Under the pieces are notes generated by a model that worked only from the letters and a program-made list of their open reading frames with translations, was not told where the DNA came from and ran no database searches. DNA of 64,000 bases from a bacterium (GTDB taxonomy: Bacteria > Bacillota > Clostridia > Lachnospirales > Lachnospiraceae). Below are positions 31,467 through 47,468 of the stretch, piece after piece. Positions within the stretch are counted from its first letter, which is position 1; the number at the start of each line of letters is the position of its first letter. Both the position numbers and the translations under genes were made by a program. The DNA is taken from positions 37,023 to 101,022 of the forward strand of contig JAUNJY010000008.1 in the NCBI GenBank assembly GCA_030535455.1, in the 5' to 3' direction.

Positions 31467-31506
31467 GCACTTTTTCAACATTTTCACATGAAAATTTTTA
31501 TTATTT

Positions 31507-31960
31507 GATACAAGGGTCTAAAATGTTATGTTTCATGCTTGCATGAAAACAGAACATCTTAAGACCCGCTCCACATGAGAAAGTAGCCCGAATAGGGCGG
31601 ATTTCTCATGGGGATAGGATTGTGAGAGCTCTACGAGCGGAACAATCCGTCCGTATCAATTGATACAAGGGTCTAAAATGTTATGTTTCATGCTTGCATG
31701 AAAACAGAACATCTTAAGACCCGCTCCACATGAGAAAGTAGCCCGAATAGGGCGGATTTCTCATGGGGATAGGATTGTGAGAGCTCTACGAGCGGAACAA
31801 TCCGTCCGTATCAATTGATACAAGGGTCTAAAATGTTATGTTTCATGCTTGCATGAAAACAGAACATCTTAAGACCCGCTCCCCATGAGAAAGTAGCCCG
31901 AATAGGGCGGATTTTTCATGGGGGTAGGATTGTGGGAGCTCTTCGAGCGGAACAATCCGT
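31507..31960. repeat. 155-bp unit repeated three times in tandem
   Basis: Units start at 31507, 31662 and 31817. The first two are identical as read. The third is about 144 bp with a handful of substitutions and stops 2 bp from the pepP stop codon. Each unit has three hairpins, in copy 1 at 31514-31567 (GGGTCT/AGACCC outer arms), 31571-31613 (CATGAGAAA/TTTCTCATG with inner GCCC/GGGC) and 31617-31648 (GGATTGT/ACAATCC). No coding capacity. On the minus strand it forms the 3' region of pepP and lies upstream of the CobW promoter. Confidence 0.95.
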
Positions 31961-31962
31961 GT

Positions 31963-33753
31963 CTATATTTCTCTTGTATACTCTTTTAGCCATACTGCTT
32001 CATCGATGCTCATATATGGCAACAATGTTTCATATACCTTTTTGTGATATGCATTCAATCTTGCTTTTTCCACGCTTGACATAAGAGTGATATCCAATGC
32101 ATCTAAATCAATTGGTGCCATTGTGATATTTTCAAATTGCATAAATTGACCATACTCGTTCTTTGTTCCTTTTCGGCAAACCAACTCATTTTCAATACGG
32201 ATGCCATGGCTTCCTTCCACATAAACACCAGGTTCATCTGTAGTCACCATGCCTTCTTCCAATACAGCACTCTCGCTTCGGTTTGCTGCTGCCTTCCAGC
32301 GGAAGCCATTTGGAGATTCATGTACATTAAGAAGGTAGCCAACACCATGTCCGGTACCACAACGGTAATCAAGATCCAGATTCCAGATAGGTCCTCTTGC
32401 AAGGATATCTAAGTTTAACCCTGTACAGCCATGAAGGAATTTAGCATTTGCTAGATTAAGCATAGAATTTACCACTGCCGTAAAATGATGTCTCTGTTCT
32501 TCACATACTGGTCCAAGTGCCAACGTTCTGGTGATATCTGTGGTTCCCTCATAATACTGTCCGCCGGAGTCGATTAAGAGAAGTCCTTCTTTCTTAAGTA
32601 CAGCACAATCCTCTTCCTTGGCGCTATAGTGCATCATTGCTGCATTATCCTTATATGCACAGATTGTGTCAAAGCTAAGTTCAATAAATCCTTCCTGTGC
32701 CTTTCTGCACTCTTCTAGATAATCACTTGCTGTAACTTCTGTCATAGGAATCTTTCCGATGTTCTGCTTTACCCAGTACATAAACTTAGTAAATGCAACA
32801 CCATCCTTGATATGGGCTTGGATCAAATTATCCACTTCGATATCATTTTTGATTGCTTTCATCAAAATAGATGGATTATCGGCATTTACAACTCGTACTC
32901 CTTTAGGAATGCTCTTTACAATGGTATAATTCATGCGATTGCCATCATATAAGACAGCCTGTTCTTTGCCAATCTGTGCTACATAGTTATAAATCTCATT
33001 ATATCCATAGATTGTGACACCTAAACCGTCTAAATGCTCTTTTACTTCCTCTGTTAATTTCTTTTCATTTATAAATAAACATACTTCTTTTTCTGTAATG
33101 ACTAAATATGACAATACTACCGGGTTATATTCCACATCGTCCCCGCGAATGTTTAAGATCCAGGCAATATCATCAAGACTTGTTATGATGTGCACATTTG
33201 TTTGCTTACAAGCCATCTGCTCACGAATGCGGGCAATCTTATCCCCAGCATCTTCACCTGCATACTTTAACTCTAATACAAAGGTACTCTTTTCAGAAAG
33301 TGCTGGTCTGTCTGTCCAGATGGCATCTGTCAAGTCTTCTTTATATTGAATAGTAATGGATTTCTTTGCAAGTACGGCTTCTAACTTCTTACCGAAGCTT
33401 GCTGCAATCACACGTCCATCAAAACCGACGCAACTATTTTCTTCAAGCTCATCTAACAGAAATTCTTCAATGGTTGCGACACCGCTTTCCTGACTCTTGA
33501 ACAGTGCTATTTCGCTTCCCATCAATTCACGTTCTGCTTGAATATAATATCTTCCATCTGTCCATAAACCTGCTTTGTCCATGGTCACTACCAAGGTTCC
33601 TGCCGAACCTGTGAAGCCTGAAAAATATTTTCTTACTTGAAAATACTCTCCCACATATTCTGATTGATGAAAATCTGCAGTAGGAATAATATATGCATGT
33701 ATATTATGTTGTCTCATTAAGTGTCTTAACTGATTGATACGTTCTACGATCAT
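31963..33753 (-). CDS. pepP: Xaa-Pro aminopeptidase (M24 family)
   Basis: 596 residues with three parts: two creatinase-like N-terminal domains (about 1-300) and a pita-bread catalytic domain with metal ligands in LLIDSGGQYYEGTTDITRT (near 405-423), the GTGHGVG motif near 490 and later Glu residues (TTDEPGVY, IRIENE). This is the long, APP1-like form that releases N-terminal residues before proline. The start is the ATG at 33753 (MIVERINQL), with AAAGGAGG 6 nt upstream. The ATG two codons earlier would touch the ribosome binding site. Monocistronic, and its 3' end runs directly into the tandem repeats. Confidence 0.92.
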   Translation of the reverse strand: MIVERINQLRHLMRQHNIHAYIIPTADFHQSEYVGEYFQVRKYFSGFTGSAGTLVVTMDKAGLWTDGRYYIQAERELMGSEIALFKSQESGVATIEEFLLDELEENSCVGFDGRVIAASFGKKLEAVLAKKSITIQYKEDLTDAIWTDRPALSEKSTFVLELKYAGEDAGDKIARIREQMACKQTNVHIITSLDDIAWILNIRGDDVEYNPVVLSYLVITEKEVCLFINEKKLTEEVKEHLDGLGVTIYGYNEIYNYVAQIGKEQAVLYDGNRMNYTIVKSIPKGVRVVNADNPSILMKAIKNDIEVDNLIQAHIKDGVAFTKFMYWVKQNIGKIPMTEVTASDYLEECRKAQEGFIELSFDTICAYKDNAAMMHYSAKEEDCAVLKKEGLLLIDSGGQYYEGTTDITRTLALGPVCEEQRHHFTAVVNSMLNLANAKFLHGCTGLNLDILARGPIWNLDLDYRCGTGHGVGYLLNVHESPNGFRWKAAANRSESAVLEEGMVTTDEPGVYVEGSHGIRIENELVCRKGTKNEYGQFMQFENITMAPIDLDALDITLMSSVEKARLNAYHKKVYETLLPYMSIDEAVWLKEYTREI

Positions 33754-35713: not shown

Positions 35714-35835
35714 TTTCTATTTTCCCCTTTTGTTTCTCATTAATTTTGTTGTTATTGATACTATATCAGGCTAATATGACCTGAATATGACTATTCTTAA
35801 TGAGAATTTTTCCCATTAACGAGAAATCACGAACA

Positions 35836-35988
35836 AAGTGTTTTGCTTGCAAAACACTCCGCGCCGAACGCGATCACGAAGTGATAAACTCCTTCCGCGT
35901 AAGTGCGCATCTTGGCTTTCTGGTTTTTAGAAAGCCTTTTTTAATACATAGGAGGCTTCTCGAAGAGAAGTTTCCTATGTATTAAAAA
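35836..35988 (-). repeat. Structured RNA-like element, copy A
   Basis: Read on the minus strand: a long hairpin with arms ATACATAGGA/TCCTATGTAT and an apex containing CTCTTCGAG, a second hairpin (GGCTTTCT/AGAAAGCC), then a compact core GCGCACTTA-CGCG-GAAGGAGTTT-ATCAC-TTC-GTGAT-CGCG-TTCGGCGC, and finally a GTGTTTTGC/GCAAAACAC hairpin that resembles a terminator. The fixed blocks recur in copies B and C, while the stems differ in sequence but still pair. It ends 123 bp upstream of the FtsX-like gene. Confidence 0.8.
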
Positions 35989-36017
35989 AGTGTCTTCGAC
36001 ACGCTCAACTCCCCTTC

Positions 36018-36170
36018 CCCTCAATCTTGAGGGAGAAAACACTTTGCCCGCGCCGAACCTGATCGCTCAAGCGACATCTTCCTTTCAGGTGAGTACGCAT
36101 TCTGCACCCGTTTTTTTCAGGGTGCTTTTTACTTTATAGGGAAGGGCTCGAAGAGAACTTTCTATAAAGT
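36018..36170 (-). repeat. Structured RNA-like element, copy B
   Basis: Same plan as copy A, 30 bp further upstream in the same orientation. The long hairpin has arms ACTTTATAG/CTATAAAGT, the second hairpin GCACCC/GGGTGC, and the core GCGTACTCA-CCTG-AAAGGAAGATG-TCGC-TTGA-GCGA-T-CAGG-TTCGGCGC. A CCCTCAA/TTGAGGG hairpin closes it. Stem 2 is CCTG/CAGG here against CGCG/CGCG in copy A, and stem 3 is TCGC/GCGA against ATCAC/GTGAT: compensatory differences. Confidence 0.8.
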
Positions 36171-36178
36171 AAAAAAAA

Positions 36179-36223
36179 GAGGTAAATGTCTATTGAGTAA
36201 AACTAATCAATAAACATTACCTC
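36179..36223 (-). terminator. Rho-independent terminator of the CAP-domain gene
   Basis: GAGGTAAATGTCTATTGA pairs with TCAATAAACATTACCTC, one bulged base, followed by eight T on the minus strand. It lies 26 bp past the stop codon at 36249 and separates that gene from element B. Confidence 0.9.
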
Positions 36224-36248
36224 TTTTATATATTGTAATTATACTACC

Positions 36249-37268
36249 CTAATTGGTGAACACTTGTGTCCAATATAAGACTCCATTTTGTTCGTAACAG
36301 CCAATACCGACTTTTCCAAACTTAGAGCTTAATATGTTGGCACGATGTCCATCCGAGTTCATCCAAGCATCCATAACCGCCGATGCTGACTTTTGTCCAT
36401 AGGCTATATTTTCTCCCCAGGCCATATAGCTTATGCCGTATTCTTTCAATACAGTGACACCGCTGGTACCATCTGGTCTTGTATGACTAAATGTCGAAAC
36501 AATTTCTTTGGCACGTTTCGTTGCCGCATTATTTAAAGCAGTCGTTGTAGTTAACGCAGAAAGGCCTTGTTTTGCACGTTCCTCGTTTACGATGGCAAGC
36601 ACCTGGCTCGCTTTGGAACTTATAGAAGAACCACTATCATTATCGGAGTCTGTACTTGGCTTTTTCGTTGCAACAGGTGTTTTTGTTGCAGACGGTGCAG
36701 AAGTAGCCACAGGCTTCTTCGTTGCCACAGGTCTCTTTGTCTCAACTGGTTTAACTGTCTCTACTGGTGCAGCTGTTACGACTGGATTTTTCGTCTGAGA
36801 AGGAGCAGATGTCTTTGAAGGTGTCGTCGTACAATTGGACGATCCCACAATAACTACTGAATTTCCATTAATCTGATATGAAACCTTGTCATTTTCTGCA
36901 GCCGTTGTAGGTTCCGTTGTAACCGTTACCGACTGACTGTCTTTTTGTTTCTCTTTTGTTGTTTCATTTTTGTTACTAGCTTTTCTGTTGTTAGTTACAT
37001 TACTTGCAGCTTCTAAAGATGGCGTTACTGCCACTTCTTTTGATTCTGTTTCCTCTTCGTTGCCATTTGTTTCAGCTTCTAGATTTTGTGTCTCTGCTTC
37101 GTTATCTGTTTGTATTGGTGCTGTATTTTCAGGTTCTGCAGTCTCTTCCACTATGGAAGTTTCTGTGTTGATGTGCTTATAACTTTCAGTACTTTCTCCG
37201 CTGGCGCAAGATGTCATCCCCACTGCACCTAGAAGAAGGGTACCTAAGAGCAAGCCATGTTTCTTCAT
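36249..37268 (-). CDS. CAP/SCP-domain secreted lipoprotein with a Thr/Pro-rich linker
   Basis: 339 residues. The signal peptide ends in GMTSC, a plausible lipobox with Cys21. A disordered acidic Glu/Thr/Asn region (about 22-125) and a repetitive linker built from PV[AE]T[KSA][KAR]P units (about 160-205) lead to a C-terminal CAP domain (about 217-339) with FSHTRPDG near 260, GENIAYG near 287 and HRANILS near 309. CAP proteins of sporulating Bacillota (YkwD-like) are cell-surface or spore-associated and have no agreed activity. The position upstream of sigK on the same strand fits a cell-envelope role but proves nothing. Confidence 0.85.
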   Translation of the reverse strand: MKKHGLLLGTLLLGAVGMTSCASGESTESYKHINTETSIVEETAEPENTAPIQTDNEAETQNLEAETNGNEEETESKEVAVTPSLEAASNVTNNRKASNKNETTKEKQKDSQSVTVTTEPTTAAENDKVSYQINGNSVVIVGSSNCTTTPSKTSAPSQTKNPVVTAAPVETVKPVETKRPVATKKPVATSAPSATKTPVATKKPSTDSDNDSGSSISSKASQVLAIVNEERAKQGLSALTTTTALNNAATKRAKEIVSTFSHTRPDGTSGVTVLKEYGISYMAWGENIAYGQKSASAVMDAWMNSDGHRANILSSKFGKVGIGCYEQNGVLYWTQVFTN

Positions 37269-46394: not shown

Positions 46395-46626
46395 CCCTGT
46401 TTTTAGAAACTTTGCCATTTTAAATGTATTTTAAAGTGTGCAATTAGACAATTCTGACTATTTAGGATTATTTTACCTGTTTGTTCGAGTTTTTTTGTAA
46501 ATATACCCAAATATCTTTATCATAGACTTTGTAAATGTAGCTATATGCCTATTCCTTCTTATATAATAGGTGCTTCTTAATAAGATTAGCATGCCTTATA
46601 GTGTGTTTTTAATTCAGATCAAAATG

Positions 46627-46792
46627 TCTTCTTCTTCAATCTCCCGGGAGAAGACACTTTGCCGGCGCCGAACTCGGTCGCGGAAGCGATATCTTCCCTT
46701 CGAATGAGTGCGCATCCTACACCCGCTTTTCAGGGTGATTTCTTCAAGAATAGGAGGCTGTTCGAAGAGAAGTTTCCTATTCTTGAAAAAAA
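46627..46792 (-). repeat. Structured RNA-like element, copy C
   Basis: Same order of parts as copies A and B. On the minus strand: long hairpin CAAGAATAGGA/TCCTATTCTTG with CTCTTCGA near the apex, hairpin CACCCTG/CGGGTG, core GCGCACTCAT-TCG-AAGGGAAGATA-TCGC-TTCC-GCGA-C-CGA-GTTCGGCGC, then TGTCTTCT/AGAAGACA. It lies between the udk terminator and the nupN promoter. The rest of 46395-46626 shows nothing recognisable. Confidence 0.78.
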
Positions 46793-46834
46793 GACCCGTG
46801 AAAGCAATTGCATTAATTGCTCTCTTGGGTCTTT
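46790..46834 (-). terminator. Rho-independent terminator of udk
   Basis: AAAGACCC (46790-46797) and GGGTCTTT (46827-46834) with an inner AGCAATT/AATTGCT stem, followed by a T-run on the minus strand that belongs to the first hairpin of element C. It lies just after the udk stop codon. Confidence 0.88.
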
Positions 46835-46838
46835 ACAC

Positions 46839-47468
46839 TTAGTTATGATTATAACCGTTAAGTAATAATCTAAGATGTTCTGTTAAGATACTGATACCAG
46901 TCTTATTTTCTCCACCTCTAGGAATAATGATGTCTGCATATTTCTTAGATGGCTCCACAAATTGTTCATGCATTGGCTTAACAGTTTGTGTATATTGTGT
47001 AAGTACTGATTCAATACTTCTACCACGATCATGGATATCACGAGTAATTCTTCTCATTAAACGTTCATCTGCATCTGTATCCACAAATACTTTAATATCC
47101 ATTAAATCTCTTAATTCAGCATCCTCTAAAATCAGGATACCTTCCACGATAATTACTTTCTTTGGCTCAACTAGTACTGTCTCTTTGGATCTAGTGTGCA
47201 TAGTATAATCGTATTCTGGACGATAAATTGCTTTTCCTGCTTTTAACTCTTTTACATCCTCAATCATTTTCTTTGTATCGAAAGACGATGGATGATCATA
47301 GTTAAGTTTGCTTCTTTCCTCTAAAGGCATATCGTCATGCGCCCAATAATAATTGTCATGACTAATTAACTCTATGTCATTTTTGAAATATTCCTTTATC
47401 ATATTTACAATGGTTGTCTTGCCCGATGCTGAACCGCCCGCAATACCAACAATACATACACTGTTCAT
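46839..47468 (-). CDS. udk: Uridine kinase
   Basis: 209 residues. P-loop GGSASGKTT near 10-18, SHDNYYW near 36 (catalytic Asp and substrate-binding Tyr), NYDHPSSFD near 55 and the RITRDIHDRGRS lid near 138-149. It phosphorylates uridine or cytidine with ATP or GTP. The next genes on the strand are the nucleoside importer and tdk, a sensible salvage grouping although separated by a terminator. Confidence 0.95.
   Translation of the reverse strand: MNSVCIVGIAGGSASGKTTIVNMIKEYFKNDIELISHDNYYWAHDDMPLEERSKLNYDHPSSFDTKKMIEDVKELKAGKAIYRPEYDYTMHTRSKETVLVEPKKVIIVEGILILEDAELRDLMDIKVFVDTDADERLMRRITRDIHDRGRSIESVLTQYTQTVKPMHEQFVEPSKKYADIIIPRGGENKTGISILTEHLRLLLNGYNHN

Follow-up and report, generated by a model that had tools for sequence, protein, structure and literature searches.

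A folded repeat behind intrinsic terminators of Lachnospiraceae: probably a mobile palindromic DNA rather than an exporter riboswitch

Introduction

The minus strand of a 64-kb stretch of a Lachnospiraceae genome (contig JAUNJY010000008.1 of assembly GCA_030535455.1; hereafter the window) contains three copies of one repeat that share fixed blocks, and the sequence GTTCGGCGC occurs three times in it against 0.06 expected. An earlier note on this DNA had reported the three copies with their fixed blocks and the compensatory changes of their stems, and had interpreted two of them as a tandem structured RNA, recalling a riboswitch, before an ABC exporter, with a small mobile element as the main alternative. 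The copies and blocks are indeed present in the sequence, and a covariance model of the core recovers all three. The locus thus raises the question of whether this fold belongs to a regulatory RNA or to a piece of DNA that moves. Our results suggest, with a probability of roughly 0.6, that the repeat is a short non-coding mobile palindromic DNA, landing behind terminators on the lagging-strand template, and not a riboswitch of the exporter. This reading is based on the copy number and scatter of the repeat, its sets of near-identical copies, the empty sites, the terminator target, the orientation with the replication fork and a covariation of the DNA type. In the following, genomes (G) and loci (L) are designated by our own handles where they have to be told apart, G000 being the genome of the window.

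The three copies of the window

The model of the core (R1) was built from 35 copies, and its matches in the window, at E up to 10, are the three copies only. Copy B (35984..36170, minus strand) consists, according to sequence, fold and model, of a palindrome A, a small hairpin B, a three-helix core and a hairpin C ending in a T-tract. In the predicted fold, the A-tract of its palindrome A (36126..36178, minus strand) pairs with the T-tract of the upstream terminator, and its hairpin B (36104..36125, minus strand) pairs GCACCC with GGGTGC; the core lies at 36048..36101 on the same strand (72.2 bits, E 3.5e-16). The upstream terminator, a stem-loop with T-tract recognized from sequence and fold (36171..36226, minus strand), is that of a CAP domain gene (36249-37268) and is the proposed insertion target of copy B.

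Copy A (35831..35983, minus strand; sequence, fold and model) stands directly behind hairpin C of copy B. Its palindrome A (35937..35989, minus strand), with the arms AATACATAGG/CCTATGTATT, is predicted to combine the T-tract of copy B with its own A-tract. It is followed on the minus strand by hairpin B (35914..35936), which folds so that, with the neighboring A-tract, it is terminator-like on the plus strand, by the core (35859..35911; 67.5 bits, E 5.6e-15) and by hairpin C (35831..35858; sequence and fold), whose right end CTTTGTTC recurs in several relatives of the copy A subfamily. The third copy (46621..46785, minus strand; sequence and fold) has arms of the CAAGAATAGG type, a core at 46663..46716 on the minus strand (69.5 bits, E 1.7e-15) and a degenerate 3' end. 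Its proposed target is the intrinsic terminator, identified by eye (46786..46834, minus strand), of an upstream gene of the phosphoribulokinase/uridine kinase family (46839-47468). The copies have stable predicted folds, with z between -3.2 and -8.5 as calculated on stretches that extend partly into the flank. With respect to their extents, the earlier description was right in recognizing three copies; the 29 bases that it had left between the first two (35989-36017) are part of the 3' hairpin of copy B, so that A and B abut.

A common plan with variable ends and modules

The same succession of palindrome A, small hairpin B, three-helix core and hairpin C is common to copies of many genera and makes up a non-coding unit of about 150-190 bp. 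A host terminator with its T-tract precedes palindrome A, whose arms are free to vary in sequence while their complementarity is kept, and whose A-tract faces the T-tract of the terminator. The core is built of three helices whose internal loops are fixed; hairpin C, which follows it, has a T-rich end. No longer, gene-bearing form of the repeat was noticed in the flanks inspected, which were read rather than searched systematically.

Sets of near-identical copies allow the ends to be delimited. The set of G130 extends from TTTAATAGG to CATGCTTTGTTC in 5/5 copies, and in the set of G249 the left end is TGTAATAGG or TGTAACAGG in 6/7 copies and the right end is CTTTTTCA in 6/7. Neither terminal inverted repeats nor a target-site duplication were seen in these five and seven young copies, which were compared by eye. 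According to the earlier note, randomly scattered copies with target-site duplications and no expression would speak against an RNA: the scattered copies were found, and the duplications were not seen. One G249 copy (L197) has the core and hairpin C of the others (L193-L196, L198 and L199) together with a different palindrome A and hairpin B, which indicates that modules are exchanged between subfamilies. Truncated copies also occur, several being cut at the 3' side and others at the 5' side or carrying inner deletions. The 3'-cut copies had suggested an RNA of the opposite strand priming reverse transcription at the T-tract; this idea was dropped given that 5'-cut and inner-deleted copies also exist.

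Hairpin C is terminator-like in 22/54 copies, compared with 13% in shuffles. On the opposite strand, hairpin B together with the A-tract of palindrome A is terminator-like in 13/54 copies, compared with 6% in shuffles and with 1/54 on the sense strand. Some copies accordingly look like two-way terminators, with hairpin C on one strand and hairpin B on the other, as at 35914-35936 on the plus strand of the window.

Size and distribution of the family

In G000, model R1 recovers at least 147 core matches at E ≤0.1, the weakest with E 0.003; this is a lower bound, as 150 of 1104 candidates were scored, and it includes some matches at contig ends of a genome that is 93.6% complete with 7.7% contamination. 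A loose pattern finds 117 matches in the same genome, against 40 for the reversed control pattern. Among these core matches there are 22 adjacent pairs less than 1 kb apart. The tandem pair pointed out previously therefore exists, but it is not special to the exporter.

A first search retrieved matches at E ≤0.01 in 16/61 genomes (G000 included), all of them from the family of the window, while 0/24 genomes from other families of the order had a match. In a wider draw, with at most 19 candidates scored per genome, 59/299 genomes of the family matched at E ≤1e-4. Copy A, as the sole blastn query, had no match in plasmid and phage collections, and viral contigs contained no match to an exact core pattern. 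The exact-pattern scan of a contig collection retrieved one MAG contig, this pattern being too strict for mapping the family.

The repeat falls below the gathering score of every Rfam family in the window and in 20 relative loci, in agreement with the earlier note, which had not recognized it as a known class; a known RNA class is not supported by these results. Below the gathering score, copies A and B and eight relative loci gave only scattered weak matches, such as those of miRNA models on the palindromes. With its many scattered, short, non-coding and folded copies and no gene of its own, the repeat fits the dispersed folded intergenic kind. No description of it was met in the available text of the open-licence literature searched (including PMC3049150, PMC8919778, PMC6006769, PMC2267715 and PMC10969869), and it is possible that it has been described elsewhere.

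Landing behind terminators

Where a judgement was possible, most copies were located directly 3' of an intrinsic terminator and in its orientation. A hairpin of -8 kcal/mol or below was found in the 40 nt before the T-tract in 74/94 non-tandem copies, compared with 12/94 when a control position (160-200 nt upstream) was examined; palindrome A was not located in 87/188 copies, which were left out of this test, and a few hits were on the wrong strand. Likewise, the longest upstream reading frame is co-directional with the repeat for 29/29 copies of G003 (three of them forming one array). In tandem arrays, the next copy follows hairpin C of the previous one, as A follows B. The match between T-tract and A-tract is imperfect at several young sites.

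The terminator before the repeat can also be that of a leader. Among 15 loci submitted to Rfam, partly picked for their leader-like look, a T-box precedes the repeat on the same strand in L051, L191 and L229, an FMN riboswitch in L207 and a fluoride riboswitch in L227. Since copies stand behind the terminators of such leaders, the target seems to be the terminator rather than the gene end. Two further candidate T-box tails (L057 and L184) were below the Rfam score. In the five leader loci, the copies are located between the leader terminator and the gene, where they could alter the function of the leader; hairpin C has an interrupted T-rich end in L051 and L191, which would suit selection against an insert that terminates transcription.

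Downstream of the repeat no fixed gene class is apparent, the reading frames after the 29 G003 copies being unrelated as judged by eye, and promoter-like matches around the copies of the window are at chance level. The interpretation as a riboswitch before the ABC exporter was not borne out: the copies follow the terminators of many genes, G-U pairs are nearly absent, the presence of the repeat differs between species and promoters are at chance.

Presence, absence and recent spread

Near-identical copies at unrelated sites are found in G003, G249 and G130, and likewise in the subfamily of copy A of the window, whose members stand behind unrelated terminators. The complete genome G003 displays a clear recent burst. 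Orthologous sites, for which the comparison covered 30 of 48 matches, some of them not true orthologues, include empty ones: at L066, a gene end of G003 carries a copy behind its terminator and the orthologous ends of G001 and G002 are empty, and at L072 the site is filled in G003 and empty in G000. At two sites (L066/L143 and L060/L148), the terminator that carries a copy in G003 is followed by a decayed copy in G000, which could correspond to old inheritance, with losses elsewhere, or to a second landing. When 46 copies of G000 were compared with one another, each was 80-95% identical to its best counterpart at a different locus, and many of these copies are therefore not recent. The small mobile element that had been the alternative of the earlier note is thus supported by the scatter, the near-identical lineage sets and the empty orthologous sites.

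Orientation relative to replication

The complete genome of G003 consists of one contig, dnaA is located at 3,497,432, and the GC skew turns there and at about 1.147-1.152 Mb. When the terminus is placed at this skew turn, 49/49 copies (44 independent loci) run with the replication fork; when it is set opposite the origin (1.24 Mb), 48/49 do so. As a background, 252/294 long reading frames (85.7%) run with the fork in 18 sampled stretches, 2 of 20 having been left out because of their location at the origin and near the terminus. Against this gene bias, 44/44 loci give p = 0.001 and 43/44 give p = 0.009. A crude scan for terminators in the G003 stretches found 54/79 with the fork.

In G000, the minority strand of the respective contig accounts for 2/102 independent loci, compared with 13.0 expected (P = 2e-5). 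This test used the 36 contigs with more than one locus, took the gene bias of G003 as a stand-in and assumed that contigs do not span the origin or the terminus; at a gene bias of 95%, P would be 0.12. As nearly all copies run with the replication fork, the top strand of the repeat corresponds to the lagging-strand template.

Together, these observations can be assembled into a scheme, in which exposure of the lagging-strand template would allow the unit to fold as single-stranded DNA, the form in which it would be recognized and moved. It would land at a terminator hairpin with a T-tract or at the end of a resident copy, perhaps aided by the pairing of the T-tract with the A-tract of the element. 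The hairpin and T-rich end of a resident copy would then offer a landing site themselves, leading to tandem arrays. The moving enzyme would act in trans, and landing behind a terminator would probably cause little damage to the neighboring genes.

Candidate helper enzymes

Two enzyme families could be expected to move such a unit. In the first case, the repeat would be a retroelement comparable to a bacterial SINE, its RNA being integrated downstream of terminators through a protein supplied in trans, either that of a class C group II intron or a similar reverse transcriptase (RT). Class C introns have the same two habits, the terminator and the lagging-strand template, according to PMC8919778, and the RT domain RVT_1 is present in all three genomes whose young sets are clearest (G003, G130 and G249), as well as in G203. 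Moreover, in G130 a group II intron starting with GTGCG is located directly behind an intrinsic terminator (L316, 680-800), as would be expected of a class C intron, and such an intron may mobilize the repeat in trans. Nevertheless, RVT_1 is absent from G000, despite its at least 147 repeat matches, and from 7/10 further carriers (G114, G193, G239, G197, G267, G186 and G014). The sole RT found in G249 is retron-like, and the RT genes of G003 comprise two of the retron-like kind and one group II maturase, whose intron is inside a coding sequence. The intron of G203 (L315) comes after a coding stretch in a mobile region.

The repeat copies themselves do not resemble introns either: neither copies A and B (E up to 10) nor eight relative loci (E up to 0.5) gave a match to group II intron domains, whereas Rfam does find true group II introns in other loci at gathering score. 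Group II introns start with GUGYG, and the repeat starts with arms such as TTTAATAGG instead. In addition, the covariation is nearly free of G-U pairs. We therefore regard the retroelement as unlikely. A presumed resemblance of the core to the start of retron RNA was likewise dropped, G000 being without RVT_1.

In the second case, the repeat would be a non-autonomous derivative of the IS200/IS605 or REP type, moved by a Y1 (HUH) transposase reading hairpins of single-stranded DNA. Y1 enzymes need single-stranded DNA, recognize hairpins and draw on the lagging strand (PMC6006769), and the Y1_Tnp domain is present in G000 and in 5/11 carriers (G130, G249, G197, G267 and G186). In 10/54 copies, the motif GT[AG]G stands no more than 6 nt from the core foot (2/54 for the foot of hairpin C), where it is missing from the other 44/54. 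However, Y1_Tnp is absent from six of the 11 carriers, namely G114, G193, G239, G203, G014 and the complete G003, which had the recent burst, and the ends of five Y1 loci, compared by eye, show no resemblance to the repeat. A Y1 origin accordingly appears doubtful. At one locus (L123), a long palindrome (GTTTCCAAAGCTCCGTTTTTC...) immediately precedes an IS200-like element at its left end, upstream of the Y1 transposase gene.

Neither RVT_1 nor Y1_Tnp tracks the carriers, and both are missing from G114, G193 and G239, which are 96-98% complete. Some carriers may have lost their helper, or it may be of another kind. Pursuing the latter, we tentatively suggest a new kind of mobile element that uses terminators in the exposed lagging-strand template as landing sites and is moved neither by a reverse transcriptase nor by a Y1 transposase, but by enzymes of a family with no known part in transposition, or by a replication machinery that switches between sites composed of a hairpin and a T-tract.

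Covariation and the nature of the folded molecule

The compensatory stem swaps on which the RNA interpretation had been built do exist and go far beyond chance. Helix P1 pairs in 156/168 cells over 42 distinct cores of G000, compared with a mean of 125 and a maximum of 137 in 2000 shuffles. The core structure was named by hand before being tested, and its test is favored by its having been derived from these same copies. In the cross-genus comparison of 61 distinct rows, pairing extends to 97.1% of 793 cells and double changes number 94, compared with 19.8 in shuffles, while slid controls reach at most 44.1% pairing; this alignment (A4) was fitted to the model and so favors the pairing. An RNAalifold fold of the first MAFFT alignment was poor and was set aside, the stems being shifted by a column between variants.

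The kind of base change is, in contrast, unusual for a sense RNA. In the 61 cross-genus rows, the core has 3 G-U and 16 A-C cells besides its 94 double changes. As a control from the same family, small SRP RNAs have 35 G-U and 0 A-C cells with 112 double changes over 19 pairs, which we assigned from the known SRP fold together with the alignment. This control is based on 29 aligned bacterial small SRP RNAs, out of 30 loci from 38 genomes with a match, L286 being left out because it is shortened at a contig end. The proportion of G-U to double changes differs between the repeat and SRP RNA (Fisher p = 4e-6). Nor do the outer hairpins display an excess of G-U over A-C greater than 11 to 9, the counts being 19 G-U against 42 A-C in hairpin A and 11 against 9 in hairpin C, although the script that located these hairpins sometimes picks a host hairpin. 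A set of 35 copies of G000, which includes many decayed ones, has 13 G-U and 19 A-C cells. Covariation of the RNA type, with G-U intermediates, is therefore not what the sense strand of the repeat displays.

As the covariation consists nearly entirely of Watson-Crick swaps and G-U is rare compared with SRP RNA, we infer that the pairing is kept at the DNA level or in a molecule of the opposite strand, and not in a sense RNA. Since 10 of the 16 A-C cells fall at one pair, the argument about the strand depends on how rare G-U is. These counts would also be compatible with a structured RNA made from the opposite strand, in which A-C cells become G-U.

The strong covariation and the stable folds would also be expected of a regulatory or trans-acting RNA multiplied by duplication, as the earlier note had it, and an RNA of the opposite strand would fit both the A-C cells and the terminator-like look of hairpin B with the A-tract on that strand. 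Nevertheless, the near absence of G-U, the chance-level promoters of the window, the lack of a visible link to a gene class and the presence and absence of the repeat between species together make this explanation very unlikely. A domesticated host element selected at each site, for example a bidirectional insulator backing up terminators, would account for the terminator-like hairpins B and C, but is hardly credible given that near-identical lineage sets, decayed and truncated copies, copies behind leader terminators upstream of genes and empty orthologous sites fit a parasite better.

The mobile palindromic DNA that we favor has a practical consequence, as such a repeat mimics a new structured RNA in a covariation test, yet its covariation is of the DNA kind. 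Comparing the numbers of G-U and A-C cells could serve as a simple filter to separate false candidates for new RNAs from real ones.

Comparison with known systems

Class C group II introns integrate right after rho-independent terminators and use the lagging-strand template for insertion (PMC8919778), and they resemble the repeat in both respects. They are unlike it in that the repeat has no match to intron domains, has no room for a protein gene and occurs in carriers without RT. A repeat sharing the habits of these introns would imply a convergent use of terminators as safe sites, or travel on the protein of such an intron, or a new transposition enzyme.

The Y1 enzymes of the IS200/IS605 family use single-stranded DNA as their medium, above all that of the lagging strand (PMC6006769). 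REP/REPIN sequences and IS200/IS605 are similar to the repeat as dispersed hairpin DNA. The repeat differs from them by its chain of four units over about 150-190 bp with a conserved three-helix core, by the presence of GT[AG]G in no more than the 10/54 copies mentioned and by the lack of Y1 in 6/11 carriers.

The pneumococcal BOX, RUP and SPRITE elements are likewise dispersed, short, folded and partly modular, SPRITE being terminator-like (PMC3049150). According to the same source, 60.8-63.3% of the copies of the pneumococcal repeats are on the leading strand, mirroring the genes, in contrast to the repeat of G003, which runs with the fork in every copy compared with 85.7% of the sampled genes. 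BOX and RUP are also reported to produce target-site duplications (PMC3049150), whereas none was seen by eye here.

Within the window itself, the Clostridiales-1 RNA (RF01699) is likewise tandem, although its sequence differs from that of the repeat. Three copies stand head to tail at 31506-31970 on the plus strand with a period of 155 bases; the unit starts with TTGATAC, and two of the copies end with GTATCAA. Judging from this arrangement, Clostridiales-1 RNA may itself be a dispersed tandem repeat.

Even though dispersed folded repeats are known, the landing behind terminators, the near-complete orientation with the fork and the covariation by nearly nothing but Watson-Crick pairs jointly set this family apart.
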